A stretch of DNA of 64,000 nt, from positions 1,054,001-1,118,000 of the forward strand of contig JAGPNK010000008.1 in assembly GCA_020746835.1 (NCBI GenBank), written 5' to 3'. Source of the DNA: Stachybotrys elegans (lineage: Eukaryota; Ascomycota; Sordariomycetes; Hypocreales; Stachybotryaceae). The position numbers and the translations under genes are program-made. Positions 28,327 through 43,719 of this stretch are shown here, in pieces. Position 1 is the first letter of the stretch. Each line of letters starts with the position of its first letter. The notes below the pieces were generated by a model, which saw only the letters and a program-made list of their open reading frames with translations, did no database searches and was not told the DNA's origin.

Positions 28327-29844
28327 TCACATTGCCCAATATGCGTGGATGTTGGGATTCTTGAGCTCCTTTCTGGTCTCGGCGCAATAAAGCAGCGTGG
28401 CCTCGGCGGTCCAGCCGAGGCCACGCGTGAAGTGCGCGAGGGAGAGACCCTCGAGATTCCTACCAAAGTTTGCATAAGACCACATTCCCAGCTCCTTGAA
28501 GTTTTTGTCGCGAGGCCATGTGTTGGTGGGCCACTTGCGCCGGACTTCGACCACCTCCTCGAAGCCTGCATCTTTCATATAGTTCACATACTCGGTGACG
28601 GGGAATACAGGCCGACCGGCGTTGGCGGCTGCCTGGAGAATGTAGTTGGACCAGCTCATCAGGTAGCTGTCGGGAGCCAAGGTTTCGTCGTCGCACCGTG
28701 CCGGGATGGCGAGGTCCTGTATCTCCAGCCAGCCTCCTGGCTCAAGGTTACTGTTGCCGAGTGTTAAAGGAGTTCATGAAGGGGGGTAGAGGAGAGCATT
28801 CACTCGTAAGCCTTTTGGACGATGCGAGGGAAGTCGGCGAAGCTGCCGAGCATCATGCGGCACATGATGAAATCGAACTTGACCGACCATGTCCACTCTT
28901 CTTCCAGATCGTCAATCTCGAACCTGCAGTTTGGAGGGACACTACACACATGGTCAGCCACTGCAATGGGCCTAAGCCTTGCAATACGCGTCTGGAAGAT
29001 ATCGTACAATGATGGTTGGATGGGGCTTAGATCTACGCCGATGACCTATACACAGTTCAGTATGGTGTGTCGGGGGAGGGTAACACTGGACAGGGTATGG
29101 ACAAAGCTGACCTCGGCATCTGGGTGGCCATCGGCTGTATAGCGGTGACGTGAGCTTCCTTGCGACGAGACGGTGAGCAGGATGGCACGCACCATAGTCT
29201 ATTGCCCATGCGCCAGTGCCAGTCCCGATATCGAGGACCCGCTTGGCATTCTCGCTGCCAGGACATATCGACAATTCGCCATCCAATGTGCGAATCAAGA
29301 GCTCGTGCTGTATATCTTGGGAATGTGTTAATTCACGTCAAGCATTGAGATGGACACCATACCCAATCGCTCGATCTCTGTCTAGAGATTGCTGGAGATC
29401 AGCTATGTGGCACCTACAGCTGATTCAGGGTGGTGCAAATCTCACACTATCATTGGGCAGAGCATATTCTGGCAACGCAGGGTCAGAGAGGCGATAATCC
29501 GTGGTCGGGGAGGAACAAGCATACTGCCTTGCGCAAGAGCATGGTAGGTGCGGCCATTCTCCTCGTGATAGGCCATGATGCTGGAGGTTATTGATGCGAC
29601 AGAGGATTCTACATCCTAGGCAACTGGGTCAGACAGGCAGCCAGGCAGGCAATTGCAAGGAGAACTTACACCGAAGCCCGAGTCGAGATCATCGTCGCGA
29701 TCCTCAGGGGTCTCGGGCACCTGCAGACTCGACCAATTAGAATGGGGATAGGGCCCTTGTATTGGTAAAGTGGCAGAAGGTTATGAATATCATGGAGAAT
29801 TCACATACAATCTCGGCCGTGTTTTGTGGACGATGGCCCGTCAT
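28327..29844 (-). CDS. LaeA-like SAM-dependent methyltransferase
   Basis: 321 residues from ten exons: 29844-29809, 29720-29670, 29615-29525, 29468-29446, 29381-29363, 29315-29193, 29134-29112, 29045-29008, 28941-28804 and 28750-28327. Every join keeps phase and restores a family motif. The protein has SSVASITSSIMAYHEENGRT, KYALPNDSTE, the SAM-binding VLDIGTGTGAWAID, DAEVIGVDLSPIQPS, NCRFEIDDLEEEWTW, FDFIMCRMMLGSFAD and NLEPGGWLEIQD. This is the pattern of the many LaeA-like (Methyltransf_23) proteins that sit in or near fungal metabolite clusters. Its substrate is unknown. Nine short introns, several flanking exons of only 19-38 bp, are notable. It lies about 7 kb from the RiPP-like precursor. 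Confidence 0.88.
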
Positions 29845-36950: not shown

Positions 36951-37074
36951 TTTTATAAGACTATAAAAAGTATAAAAAGCGGTGTTTAGCCACCTTATAC
37001 TCTAATACAGCTTAGCTAAGGCTTGACATTTCATCATTATGATACATGATGCTAGGTAAGCTATGGTAGCAGAT

Positions 37075-37113
37075 TTATCGATAGTCAGGGTTAATAACTC
37101 GCGCGTCCTCATC
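37075..37113 (-). other. Seventh core-like repeat beyond the stop codon
   Basis: Directly after the precursor's TAG, in the same frame, the DNA reads DEDARVINPDYR then TAA. This is one more repeat unit with Tyr to Asn in the core. It shows that the precursor once ran further or that the array is decaying at its 3' end. Confidence 0.75.
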
Positions 37114-37648
37114 CTATTGGCCACGGGTATCTTTGTCCCCACGACGGTAATCCGGGTAAATGACATTGGAATCCTCGTCACGCTGGCTATGGCTGATGGA
37201 GGCATCCCGACGATAGTCAGGGTAGATGATGTTCGTGTCCTCATCGCGCTCTGTGTGTTTACCGGAGGCATCGCGGCGGTAGTCAGGGTAAATGACTCTG
37301 GCGTCTTCATCTTCTTGACCACGAGCAGCCTTGTCCCCGCGGCGGTAGTCCGGGTAGATGACCCGCGCGTCTTCGTCTTCCGCGCGACGATAGTCGGGGT
37401 AGATGACGTTCGAGTCCTCGTCACGCCGGGCGTGGTTCACGGAGGCATCTCGACGGTAATCAGGGTAAATGACCCTCGCGTCTTCCTCGTTGGAGCCAGA
37501 GACGGCTGCTGCACGGCCTGTAAAGTGCGAATTAGCATCGAGACACACGTATCAGGTGCGTGGAACTGTTCTCACCGCTGTTGGGCGTAGACGCGGGAGC
37601 GCAGAGAGTGCAAGTCGTCAAGACTGCAAGAGGGAGAAGGAACCGCAT
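37114..37648 (-). CDS. Candidate RiPP (dikaritin-like) precursor with kexin-cut repeats
   Basis: 158 residues from exons 37648-37576 and 37517-37114 (intron GTGAGA..TTTACAG, phase 1). The intron joins a signal peptide (MRFLLPLAVLTTCTLCA) to GRAAAVSGSN and then six repeats. Each repeat is an acidic spacer, a core and an Arg-Arg: EEDARVIYPDYRR, DEDSNVIYPDYRR, DEDARVIYPDYRR twice, DEDTNIIYPDYRR, DEDSNVIYPDYRR. RR is a KEX2-type cleavage site. Signal peptide plus near-identical cores with Tyr and Ile, each before a dibasic site, is the layout of ustiloxin, phomopsin, asperipin and epichloecyclin precursors. Three UstYa-family genes start 1.2 kb away, which strongly supports the call. The product would be a small cyclic peptide around IYPDY; the modification is inferred. 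An alternative is a plain secreted repeat protein. Confidence 0.85.
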
Positions 37649-38845: not shown

Positions 38846-39867
38846 TCAATCCGTCCCTTCACCTTTCTTCCTCGCCATTTCCACAAGATCCAAGCCCTCC
38901 CAGTAACGGGGCAGGGAATCTATATCGTTGGGCCGCTCACGGAACCAATCACCCGCATAACCAAAGTACTCCCGCATGGGTCCCAGATATGAACTGCCGC
39001 GGGGACAGTACCTGAAGCGATCAATGACAGCGCCGACGCCCTGCGTCTCGTTGATGTAGGCAAAGCACGCGGTGTTCTCATTGGCCCAGTCGGTGAGACG
39101 GTCCCAGCTGCGGCACATGCGCTCCTGTCCGAGACCGGTGGTGATGTTGGACGTTGTCGACGTGTAGAATGGCGTGTCGTCGGCCTCGCAGATGATGTTT
39201 TGCAGCAGGTGGTCCATGCAGTGAACGAGATGGGTGTAACTATCCATCTGCGGACGGTTGTAATTGTAGAGAACAATGGCACGGCGGACTTTGCGCTGTA
39301 AGAGTTGAGATTATGAGCCAGCTGTACACGAGAAGAGGCTTGAGAAAAAGAGGGGGGGAGGGGATGTTTTACCATGCAGTGAAGACTGTGGTGTCCATTC
39401 AACAGGTAGATGCGGCGGTCTTGGTCCCAAAAGAAGGGCGCCGACTCTGGTAAGCTGTGAGAGTCTGCCCAGTCTGCGTCGAGGCTGATTTCGCCCGCAC
39501 TTGAATCCAAGCTTTCCCATGCTATTGCTCGGTCTTCCTCAGTGGTGCTCCCCAAGCCAAACGGGGAGTGTGAGTTGTACTTGGTGGGCACATCCCGGGG
39601 TAAGTGAGCTGTATACGAGTTAGCAGACTGATGGGCAAGGCCGGCTCTCTGGTACATACCGTATGGCGATAAATCGTGTCGTGCATCTTTTCCTCGAAAA
39701 TTATTGACCAAAAGCCCAATATTGAGTAAAAGCGACACAGTGAGAAGAACCGAGACTATGGTTAATTTTCGTGATGACGGTTGTCTTGGCTGTAAATAAG
39801 ACGGGTCTTCGGAGTTCAGAGGCACCGCCTCTTCACACGGATATGTGTCGTTGCGTTCCTTCATCAT
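38846..39867 (-). CDS. UstYa (DUF3328)-family protein 1
   Basis: 297 residues from exons 39867-39660, 39608-39373 and 39295-38846. After a short cytosolic N-terminus there is one membrane span (LTIVSVLLTVSLLLNIGLLV), then the luminal domain. The two family HxxHC motifs are present: HHSLHC at the end of exon 2 and HLVHCMDHLL in exon 3, followed by the ICEADDTP block. UstYa proteins catalyse oxidative macrocyclisation in dikaritin pathways (established for ustiloxin and asperipin-2a). It is the UstYa gene closest to the precursor and reads in the same direction. The C-terminal part (CFAYINETQGVGAVIDRFRY onward) is longer than in the other two. Start is one of two adjacent ATGs. Confidence 0.88.
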
Positions 39868-40083: not shown

Positions 40084-41038
40084 TTACATGGTGGTATCTG
40101 ATCCGAGACTGGGATTGACCAAGACGGCCATGTCAGCGTCACTGATCCTCCGCGTCGATACCTTTTCCATCAAGTCATCCCAGTCCACACAGACATGCTC
40201 GGGGGATTCCAGATTAAGCATAGGCTCCTTTCTGCCTGCCGCCCAGTGGAAAGTCATCAGGGCCGTATCGGCACGGCACATCAACGCCTGCCGAAGCAAA
40301 TCCAAGCAGTGGTCTGGGCAGGATGGGGTCAGCGGAGCCCTGTGGAGGAGGGGGATCGGCGGACCACTTACCGGTGTGTAAGAGCCAGTGTGGCTCCTCA
40401 TCTGGTCCTACGCCGGGATGGTAGTATTCGCGGTAGATCCACTGGCGGAGGTATTTCTGGGGTAGCAGGTCAGAAGATGATGTGCACAAGTCCCCCCCTT
40501 TGTCTTTGGATCCTTGGGTGTGACGCTGTGGGTTGCTTACCACACAATGCAGTTGATGGCTTACGTCCATCCATGCCAACGAATCATGATCCCCCGTGGG
40601 AAGTCCCACTGATGATTGGTTCGACGACGTAAGTTCACGGTCCGAGACACGGATGTTGACGTGATGGAGCAGGTCTGCCCATGCCTGATCGATGGCTTGG
40701 CTAGGTGGCCCTGCGTATGGGCTCTCTCCAGAAAGGACGAATCGCTGCTGGCGGAGTGCAAGACGCTCCCCGCTGAAAACTGAACGGAGGACATGATCAG
40801 TAAAGGCTGAAGAATGAAGGGGATCAAGGTTGAAGAATTTACCAATTGTGTTTAAGGGTGCACTGCCCTTGTTGAATAATGGGTACGTGACGAGGACGAT
40901 AATGGTGAAGCAAACATAAAGAAGAAAGAAAGTTGCATGATAGAGTAAAGTCTTGCGATGACGGCACTTGCAGGGCCTCTTGTCGTTGTCACCATGGGGT
41001 AAGAAGTGCTCGCTCTCTTCGCCACTGCGATCCATCAT
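40084..41038 (-). CDS. UstYa (DUF3328)-family protein 2
   Basis: 249 residues from exons 41038-40843, 40779-40541, 40456-40372 and 40313-40084. A membrane span (ATFFLLYVCFTIIVLVTYPL) follows a Cys/Lys-rich cytosolic stretch. The luminal part has SPYAGPPSQAIDQAWADLL, the first motif SHQLHC and, across the last intron, the second motif HTDHCLDLLRQALMCRADT, which is the classical UstYa pattern. The first intron (40842-40780, 63 bp) is in frame and free of stops, so an unspliced form 21 residues longer is possible; splicing is preferred because it shortens the linker to family length and has a good donor, branch and acceptor. Divergent from UstYa gene 3 across a 346-bp promoter. Confidence 0.87.
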
Positions 41039-41384: not shown

Positions 41385-42211
41385 ATGAATCCGTCCGCTT
41401 GGTTTATGCCCCAGCGGCACGACTACAATACTTTGCCTGGCAATGAAGATAAGAAGCCCTCGACAGCACGCGCGCGGTACCATGTCCTGCTGAAGAGTGC
41501 TCTCGTAGGCCTCCTGGCAGTATTGAGCTTCTTCGCAGGACGACTGTCATCAACGAATGTGGCAAGCAGCGACAGAGATGTTATCGAACGTAAGCTTTGT
41601 GTCCAGGACACGATGCTCTAGATTGAGAATATTGACGTTTGGGCAGTTGGGACAAACAGCCACCTTTTCCAGTACAACCGCACCTTTGGGGAAGCACCAT
41701 CTCCCGATACCAACGCGGCATGGGAGTCGTTATTCCCTCATCATGGTGGCTTCTTTGTACACGCAGAACTGGCTCCGAAGCGGTCCGCCTTTTCAGTGTT
41801 CCACCAACTGCACTGCCTGGTAAGCAAGCAAGCAGCACTCCAAAAAGAACTGACCCATGTTTCGCCAAGGATGAGCTGAGACACGGATTCTACGTGCTCC
41901 ACGACCAAGTCATTGAGTACTCTGACATGCTCAATGCGGCGCCGCCGCCGGATGGTCGCCGCCGCTTGCACGAGGAGGAGCGGCGGGCGCTGCATGAGCA
42001 TTCTCTGGGTCACATACGCCACTGCATCGACCTGCTCCGGCAGAGCCTGATGTGCAACGCGGATTTGACTGTGGAGCTGAAGAATGAGGAGCTGGGCGGG
42101 GTGACTGGATTCGGCACTGAACACCGGTGTGTGGACTGGCCGGGGCTGTTGGACTGGATCAGGCCGTATGAGGAAACTGATGCACCGCCCATTCCCGACC
42201 ACATCGACTGA
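41385..42211 (+). CDS. UstYa (DUF3328)-family protein 3
   Basis: 239 residues from exons 41385-41589, 41647-41819 and 41870-42211. N-terminal cytosolic region (NTLPGNEDKK), a membrane span (LLKSALVGLLAVLSFFAGRL), then FQYNRTFGEAPSPDTNAAWE, the first motif VFHQLHCLDELRHG across intron 2, and the second motif HIRHCIDLLRQSLMCNADLT. Ends with HRCVDWPGLLDWI, as in typical UstYa proteins. Together with UstYa genes 1 and 2 it gives the cluster three oxidases. The O-methyltransferase starts 85 bp downstream on the same strand. Confidence 0.88.
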
Positions 42212-42296: not shown

Positions 42297-43719
42297 ATGG
42301 CAGACTCCCGAGCACTCAATGGCGCAAACGTCCCTGACCTGGAGCAGATGGCCCAGGACATCCTGTCCAAGACGCACGAGTTCATGGCAGCCCTGCGTCG
42401 AGGCGATGGCGCCCTGCCCTCTCACGACCCTGATGCCCCCAGAAACGATGCCCTGCCGCTCGAGGCGACGGCTTTGCAAAGCGACCTGATGGAGCTCACG
42501 ACGGAGCTGCAGGCTCTTGTTCAAGGCCCACGGTTGCATGTGCACAATCAGATCCTAGCAGCAAGCAAAAACCACTTCCTCTCCCCTTTGCCAACGAGAG
42601 AGAGACACTGCTAACATGATTCCCCAAAGCACGTCAATCTGGTCAACCTGCATGCCATTTACAAGTTCAAGCTACCGAGCCTGGTACCTGCGCAGGGCAG
42701 CATCAGTTACTCGGAACTAGCCGACAAGATGGACGTGAGCGAGGACGTGGTCCGCCGCATCGCCCGATATGCCATTACCAAGCATATTTTCCGGCAGGTA
42801 GACAACGATAGTCTTGCCCACTCGGCGACGTCCAAGATGCTAGCCGAGACGCCCATGATGATGGAGTGGATCGGCATGGTCTGCGAGGAGATGTGGCCGG
42901 CAGCCACGCAGGCCATCCCAGCCATGGCAAAGTGGCCCAGATCGCAAGAGCCTCAACACTCGGTAAGACCTTCACGTCTGGCCGGCCCATGTTGCAGCCG
43001 CTATCCTGCTCACTCTTTTACAGGGCTTCGCGCTCGCTCACAGACTAGACACGCACGTCTTCGGCATGCTGGTCGACCAGCCAGAGCGAGCAGCCCGCTT
43101 CGCCAACGCCATGGTCTACTTCAACTCCAACGCAGACCTGTCGCCGCACTACCTCTGCGAAGCCTTTGACTGGGAGGCCGAGTTGGTGTCGCAGGTAGTC
43201 GACCTCGGCGGGTCAGCAGGTTCCACGGCTGTGGCGCTTGCAACGCGGCTGCCGAGCGCGAGCATCGTGATCCAGGACCAGGCCGTGCTCGAGACGCAAG
43301 CTCGCGAATCCATCCCCCCGGGACTCGCCGACCGCGTGTCGTTTATGCCGCATGACTTCTTCCAGGAGCAGCCGGTGCGCGGGGCGGATGTGTACCACTT
43401 CCGGTGGATCTTCCACGACTGGCCGGACCGGTACTGCGTGCAACTCCTGCGGGCTCTGGTCCCCGCGCTCAAGACCGGGGCGAGGGTTGTTGTGTCTGAC
43501 TACGTGGTGCCCGAGTCCGGGGCAACGTCTCGGTACAAGGAGGGTCTGGTCCGGGGGTTTGACCTGGCCATGATGGAGCTGTTCAATGCGCGTGAGAGGG
43601 AGCGTGGGGATTGGGTGCGGCTGTTTGCCGAGGCGGATGAGCGGTTCCAATTTGACGGGGTTCGGACGGTGCCGGGGGCTGATCTGGCTTTTATATCGGC
43701 CGTGTGGCAGCCGGCATAA
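42297..43719 (+). CDS. SAM-dependent O-methyltransferase
   Basis: 423 residues from exons 42297-42539, 42630-42962 and 43024-43719 (all phase 0). The N-terminal dimerisation half has LHAIYKFKLPSLVP, a winged-helix stretch (SYSELADKMDVSEDVVRRIA) and WIGMVCEEMWPA. The C-terminal half has SAM motif I VVDLGGSAGSTAVALA, IVIQDQ, and VYHFRWIFHDWPDRYCV, typical of fungal sterigmatocystin-type O-methyltransferases. The His of FHDWPD is the usual catalytic base position. It would methylate a hydroxyl, possibly a Tyr or hydroxylated side chain of the cyclic peptide (inference). The first donor, GTGCAC, is unusual but is the only one that restores the family sequence. Confidence 0.85.

Follow-up and report, generated by a model that had tools for sequence, protein, structure and literature searches.

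The question raised by this locus is whether a small repeat-containing gene, within the 64-kb window of Stachybotrys elegans DNA that makes up the whole stretch analysed here, encodes the precursor of a peptide that its neighbours turn into a ring. We read the locus as a dikaritin-type RiPP gene cluster in which UstYa proteins would form the ring, with a probability of about 0.83. The encoded peptide is probably excised and then closed by the enzymes of the neighbouring genes. Clusters of this kind are already known and it is the conserved core of the peptide that is of interest.

The precursor gene and its repeats

After splicing, the precursor has 158 residues and contains six (V/I)IYPDY cores, with Arg-Arg following each of the six. 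The coordinates, strand, intron and hydrophobic N-terminus given by the original prediction were all reproduced when the gene was spliced again, and its six cores and six Arg-Arg pairs were found in the translation. The N-terminus begins MRFLLPLAVLTTCTLCAPA and residues 1 to about 17 are predicted to form a secretion signal on the basis of hydropathy and likeness to relatives. The intron is 58 nt long with GT-AG boundaries (GTGAGA...TTTACAG). Numerous GT/GC-AG pairs at this position leave the frame open, so an open frame by itself cannot fix the intron. The pair adopted was preferred by judgement, as having apparently the best donor and acceptor of the candidates, and because the resulting junction, ...NSG/RAAAVSGS, matches annotated relatives that read straight through the splice point (NSGRAATVSS in P0013, NSGRDTTVAS in P0014, NSGRDTTVSN in P0015 and NSGRAVVVSGS in P0022). 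The 18 additional residues found at this point in relatives P0001 and P0002 look like the homologous intron retained by the gene predictor, judging from the proteins.

The repeats follow the consensus (E/D)ED(A/S/T)(R/N)(V/I)IYPDYRR, with asparagine directly before Val-1 in three of the six. When the window was scanned for 5-mers repeated before KR or RR, only the precursor frame and two low-complexity arginine runs were returned. An open reading frame on the opposite strand (37060-37590, plus) was set aside as a by-product: only on the minus strand do the codon differences among the repeats make sense.

Purifying selection acts on the core peptide sequence. Across the VIYPDYRR codons of the six translated copies 7 of the 24 nucleotide columns vary; six of these are third positions and the other makes the V/I difference. 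Summed over pairs there are 56 synonymous and 5 non-synonymous differences (dS 1.53, dN 0.018), figures that are descriptive because the 15 pairs come from six copies and are not independent. For the five codons preceding the core dN is 0.22 and dS is saturated. This strong synonymous excess makes it highly improbable that the repeat is a chance or decaying one with no functional gene, as does the intact state of UstYa-1, which has the right relatives, although a decayed seventh copy does lie in frame past the stop codon and the precursor was not found as an annotated database protein in a single-sequence search (10 matches at E up to 1, the best 54% identical).

UstYa genes and other neighbours

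The precursor has three intact UstYa/DUF3328 genes nearby, at distances of 1.2-4.6 kb (Table 1). UstYa-1, UstYa-2 and UstYa-3 score 72, 146 and 93 bits, respectively, against a Pfam UstYa cut-off of 25 bits, and each has one transmembrane helix, seen as a strongly hydrophobic stretch near the N-terminus. The paired HxxHC motifs are HSLHC and HLVHC in UstYa-1, HQLHC and HTDHC in UstYa-2, and HQLHC and HIRHC in UstYa-3. From end to end, the spliced model of UstYa-1 matches B0I35DRAFT_263446 of S. elegans with 100% identity. A protein search with UstYa-1 yielded 625 candidates, 45 of which matched at E up to 1e-10, and in the 38 of these that were aligned, short or extended rows being excluded, His146, Cys147, His173 and Cys174 are invariant and His143 and His170 are at least 90% conserved. 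In the predicted structure of UstYa-1 (mean pLDDT 80.9, pTM 0.70) an anchor helix is modelled at residues 32-58 and the two motifs are carried on helices 140-159 and 168-184. The modelled arrangement of these helices is like that described for the copper-dependent DUF3328 hydroxylase CctR, in which the HxxHC pair is reported to form a binuclear copper site (PMC12435403). A Foldseek search of the PDB with the UstYa-1 model gave 39 matches at E up to 10, of which none reached 0.001, and we therefore claim no relationship of fold to any PDB entry; UstYa-2 had no match to solved structures by sequence at E up to 1.

Table 1. Coordinates of the precursor, its repeats and the neighbouring genes within the window.
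Feature	Position	Strand	Details
Precursor gene	37114..37648	minus	exons 37648-37576 and 37517-37114; intron 37575-37518
Repeat 1	37450..37488	minus	EEDARVIYPDYRR
Repeat 2	37384..37422	minus	DEDSNVIYPDYRR
Repeat 3	37339..37377	minus	DEDARVIYPDYRR
Repeat 4	37273..37311	minus	DEDARVIYPDYRR
Repeat 5	37207..37245	minus	DEDTNIIYPDYRR
Repeat 6	37141..37179	minus	DEDSNVIYPDYRR
Decayed seventh repeat	37075..37113	minus	past the stop codon, in frame
UstYa-1 (DUF3328)	38846..39867	minus	exons 39867-39660, 39608-39373, 39295-38846; 297 aa
UstYa-2 (DUF3328)	40084..41038	minus	exons 41038-40541, 40456-40372, 40313-40084; 270 aa
UstYa-3 (DUF3328)	41385..42211	plus	exons 41385-41589, 41647-41819, 41870-42211; 239 aa
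O-methyltransferase-fold protein (Pfam Methyltransf_2)	42297..43719	plus	423 aa; starts 86 bp past UstYa-3
Cytochrome P450	44104..45743	plus	505 aa; starts 385 bp past the O-methyltransferase-fold gene

The O-methyltransferase-fold protein is likely to belong to the cluster, while the membership of the cytochrome P450 that follows it is uncertain; each frame is open after two introns. By sequence, the nearest solved relatives include HpiI and LepI for the former and CYP3A4/CYP102 for the latter, and neither set would fix the role of its protein. HpiI and LepI are O-methyltransferase-fold enzymes that act in ring formation, and methyl transfer is accordingly not to be assumed for the protein encoded here. 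O-methyltransferases are said never to have been reported from dikaritin clusters (PMC12048977). On the left-hand side, the closest pieces with a biosynthetic look are a P450 (30816-32644, minus) and methyltransferase-like pieces (28327-29337, minus); they were not counted as cluster genes, both being more than 4 kb from the precursor with another long frame in between. Ten further frames of the window, which include CLN3, EMC1, an acetyltransferase, a short-chain dehydrogenase, a 5'-nucleotidase type and a WD40 protein, are not counted in the cluster.

The wider genome (43.4 Mb in 61 contigs, the window lying on contig C60) contains at least 28 UstYa exon matches. A Kex2-repeat frame is also present at four of the five other UstYa areas examined, and none was seen within the 1.5-kb flanks of two further UstYa places (L005 and L006). 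Pairs of this kind are thus ordinary in S. elegans. More widely, DUF3328 genes adjoin 22% of 7878 Kex2-repeat proteins (PMC7329392), and with such neighbours this common, adjacency alone is a weak argument. What distinguishes the YPDY precursor from the other pairs in the genome is its conservation. It has no second copy there, the sole other match having an E value of 0.98 and 29% identity.

Four other repeat frames were noted in the genome. At L026:3237-3959 (minus; G000:C5:1208237-1208959) AYGRHTDDVSxS units with KR sites adjoin two UstYa matches, making this a precursor candidate. Repeats of the di-histidine type, RHHQGGRAKGNGRGRNNKR, adjoin a strong UstYa match at L027:1685-2374 (minus; G000:C23:471685-472374), and QYQLVVSQHG(I/V)ED...KEKR repeats adjoin another match at L029:4135-4437 (plus; G000:C34:2697135-2697437). 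The fourth, at L022:6208-6585 (minus; G000:C23:1885208-1885585), encodes a short protein of secreted type whose repeats read (S/E)E(E)IDVADAFKR, and it sits within a 31-kb stretch containing several UstYa matches.

Relatives of the precursor in other fungi

A profile built from the window protein and eight of the ten single-sequence matches identified 34 precursor relatives, of which 16 carry an organism name: Hypoxylon sp. NC1633, Trematosphaeria pertusa, Plenodomus, Sclerotinia nivalis, Bimuria, Melanomma pulvis-pyrius, Pleomassaria, Xylaria cubensis, X. castorea, Annulohypoxylon stygium, A. maeteangense, Nemania sp. FL0916, Botrytis cinerea, B. aclada, Trichothecium roseum and a Sclerophora MAG. 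S. elegans itself, reported as a parasite of Rhizoctonia solani (PMC4413796), is placed in the Hypocreales, and we take the fungi carrying the YPDY core to span Xylariales, Hypocreales, Pleosporales and Helotiales. As read from these relatives, the core is not peculiar to one genome and is near-identical in many distantly related fungi. Such constancy looks unusual for natural products of this type; in a census of Kex2-processed repeat proteins (KEPs) the repeats are described as highly diverse, with most types confined to a single genus (PMC7329392).

Including those of the window, 82 exact YPDY cores were counted, leaving out P0007, a gene-model copy of P0003; as the cores were chosen by exact YPDY, the counts inform on the flanking positions and are silent on YPDY itself. 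Position 1 is valine in 75 cores, isoleucine in 5, alanine in 1 and phenylalanine in 1, and so is beta-branched in 80 of 82. Position 2 is isoleucine in 59, alanine in 14, valine in 8 and phenylalanine in 1. An aspartate is found five residues before Tyr-3 in 74 of 82, and lysine or arginine directly precedes Val-1 in 49 of 82. The core is followed by RR in 61 cases, KR in 2, the end of the protein in 17, CR in 1 and IP in 1. Diverged copies also occur in the relatives (YPNY, YPEY, YTDY, YSDY, CPDY, YPDS and YPES), and relative P0034 has SPDY/TPDY only. The dibasic pairs after 63 of the 82 cores, together with spacers that vary in sequence and length while the core is kept, speak against a secreted protein with a structural role whose repeats are never cut, and we give that explanation very little credence.

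Eight of the 16 named organisms also appear among the UstYa-1 matches, and in five of these eight the precursor and UstYa-1 lie on contigs of equal length: Hypoxylon sp. NC1633 (309210 bases), Nemania sp. FL0916 (22649), Sclerotinia nivalis (2738900), Trematosphaeria pertusa (2408948) and Melanomma pulvis-pyrius (31621). From the equal sizes we infer one shared contig in each case, and hence apparent linkage; in S. nivalis the locus tags, OCU04_006956 and OCU04_006959, are three apart. The contigs differ in length in Bimuria (86514 versus 21433) and Xylaria cubensis (37539 versus 144459), and in Botrytis cinerea the two matches come from different assemblies. The other eight organisms are not named among the 45 UstYa-1 matches, where they may sit within 90% clusters, so this absence is not evidence against linkage.

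A tree of UstYa-1 was made from 31 of the 32 organism-named matches, one of two Seiridium cardinale rows being dropped. The nine labelled rows (the window, five same-contig and three same-species) all fall on a 25-row side bounded by a branch with support of 94/91, which is not starred, and 11 of the 28 inner branches are open. Clustering of the labels was not supported when they were shuffled (4 changes versus shuffled means of 3.2-3.7). The UstYa-1 orthologs appear to group broadly by fungal class.

The same observations bear on whether the product might instead be a peptide that is released by Kex2 and stays linear and unmodified, resembling a pheromone or signal, in which case the UstYa genes would have some other purpose. 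The repeat design is common to fungal alpha-pheromone precursors (PMC6339444), and a core held constant across distant fungi would suit a signal bound by a receptor. Against this, the precursor is apparently linked to the same UstYa-1 ortholog in five of the eight named genomes that have both, nearly all pheromone-type repeat proteins are reported to be without DUF3328 neighbours (PMC7329392), and the core has two tyrosines, the residue used by several known rings. We therefore regard a linear product as unlikely. The dikaritin-type precursor proposed in the original prediction is supported by the secretion signal, the Kex2-type repeats, the adjoining UstYa genes and the apparent linkage in other fungi.

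Proposed product and comparison with known systems

The locus combines several of the features expected of a dikaritin: a ribosomal precursor with a secretion signal, as judged by hydropathy, and Kex2-bounded repeated cores; UstYa/DUF3328 proteins with an intact HxxHC...HxxHC pair in the same cluster; and, in VIYPDY, a crosslinkable residue, namely a tyrosine with an aliphatic or tyrosine partner. As in a KEP, the secretion signal is accompanied by near-identical repeats that each have a KR/RR site. In the maturation that we infer, the precursor would enter the secretory pathway and a kexin, for which the genome has a single P-domain match (on C61), would cleave after Arg-Arg to give, for example, the 13-mer DEDSNVIYPDYRR; computed cuts at these sites yield fragments of 13, 15, 22, 22 and 22 residues for repeats 2-6. 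A carboxypeptidase would then strip the two arginines, leaving a core ending at Tyr-6. This is the likely end of the product, since the tyrosine is the natural end of the protein in 17 of the 82 cores. The lumenal, membrane-anchored, copper-type UstYa proteins would then close the core into a ring by oxidation, the likeliest bond being an ether between a tyrosine phenol and the Val-1 beta-carbon. The crosslink is predicted at Val-1, with Tyr-3 or Tyr-6 as partner, because position 1 is almost always beta-branched while position 2 varies; in ustiloxins a free A/V position likewise stands beside the crosslinked isoleucine (YAIG/YVIG; PMC7329392). The acidic (D/E)D-x-x before the core is probably a recognition stretch that is later trimmed. 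Further decoration of the ring may fall to the O-methyltransferase-fold protein and to the P450.

More tentatively, and at somewhat less than even odds, the locus may represent an old dikaritin kept nearly unchanged across several fungal classes, a cyclic hexapeptide of the form (D/E)D-x-x-[V-(I/A/V)-Y-P-D-Y] that an orthologous UstYa-1 helps to make, closed at the Val-1 beta-carbon and free to vary at position 2. If so, the constancy of the core would suggest a general role, as a signal or towards a conserved target, and not that of a host-specific toxin. A core that is near-constant across orders forms a natural set with which to probe the role of the product and the choice of crosslink by UstYa proteins, the way it varies from position to position gives a prediction of which residue is crosslinked, and the set of three UstYa genes offers a compact system for splitting roles among copper enzymes.

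The core had been put forward as undescribed. Searches of the open-licence literature for IYPDY, YPDYRR, VIYPDY and IYPDYK returned a single, unrelated paper on signal detection, and YPDY is absent from the main text, as available, of PMC7329392, PMC7099791, PMC12048977 and PMC6339444. As far as the open-licence literature goes the core is thus unnamed, which does not prove it new: among the 838 types of the KEP census, G-5/P-1 and G-6 are both rich in Tyr and Asp, are found alongside DUF3328 genes and have members in Botrytis, Sclerotinia or Hypoxylon (PMC7329392), and the YPDY core may already be one of these, without a name.

Of the known systems, ustiloxin shares much of the design. Its precursor UstA also has a signal peptide, multiple cores with an acidic motif before and a dibasic pair after them, and UstYa-family genes nearby; each core is preceded by ED and followed by KR, and UstA is reported to be cut to 13-14-mers (PMC6514808). 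However, its core is YAIG/YVIG in place of VIYPDY, and it requires the tyrosinase homolog UstQ, whereas none of the 48 tyrosinase matches in the S. elegans genome is on the window's contig. Phomopsin (PhomA, with five DUF3328 genes) is similar in that its precursor has a hexapeptide core and is accompanied by several DUF3328 genes, the core being made up of Tyr, Val, Ile, Pro and Asp (PMC7329392). The order of residues is different (YVIP...), and the shared residue set carries no weight as evidence. Phomopsin-type clusters are also described with an S41 peptidase and PhomQ homologs, and the only S41 peptidase match in the genome is on C23, not on the window's contig. The YxI(G/P) core and the cluster tyrosinase and S41 peptidase of a narrow ustiloxin/phomopsin type are therefore both lacking here. 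Asperipin-2a (AprA, AprY) resembles the predicted product in its Tyr-ended hexapeptide core, in which tyrosine ethers to beta-carbons are formed by a UstYa homolog, but that core is FYYTGY and is accompanied by one UstYa homolog, a reductase and a transporter, compared with the three UstYa genes, O-methyltransferase-fold gene and P450 gene of this locus, which thus falls outside the asperipin type. The epichloecyclins (GigA) are longer, being cyclic nonapeptides, but are reported to have their crosslinked aliphatic residue N-terminal to the tyrosine, the order expected for VIYPDY (PMC9233826). In these an N-terminal isoleucine is reported to be joined to an internal tyrosine, and in victorin a C-terminal phenylalanine to an internal leucine (PMC9233826), so the polarity of the proposed crosslink, from Val-1 to a tyrosine, has precedent.
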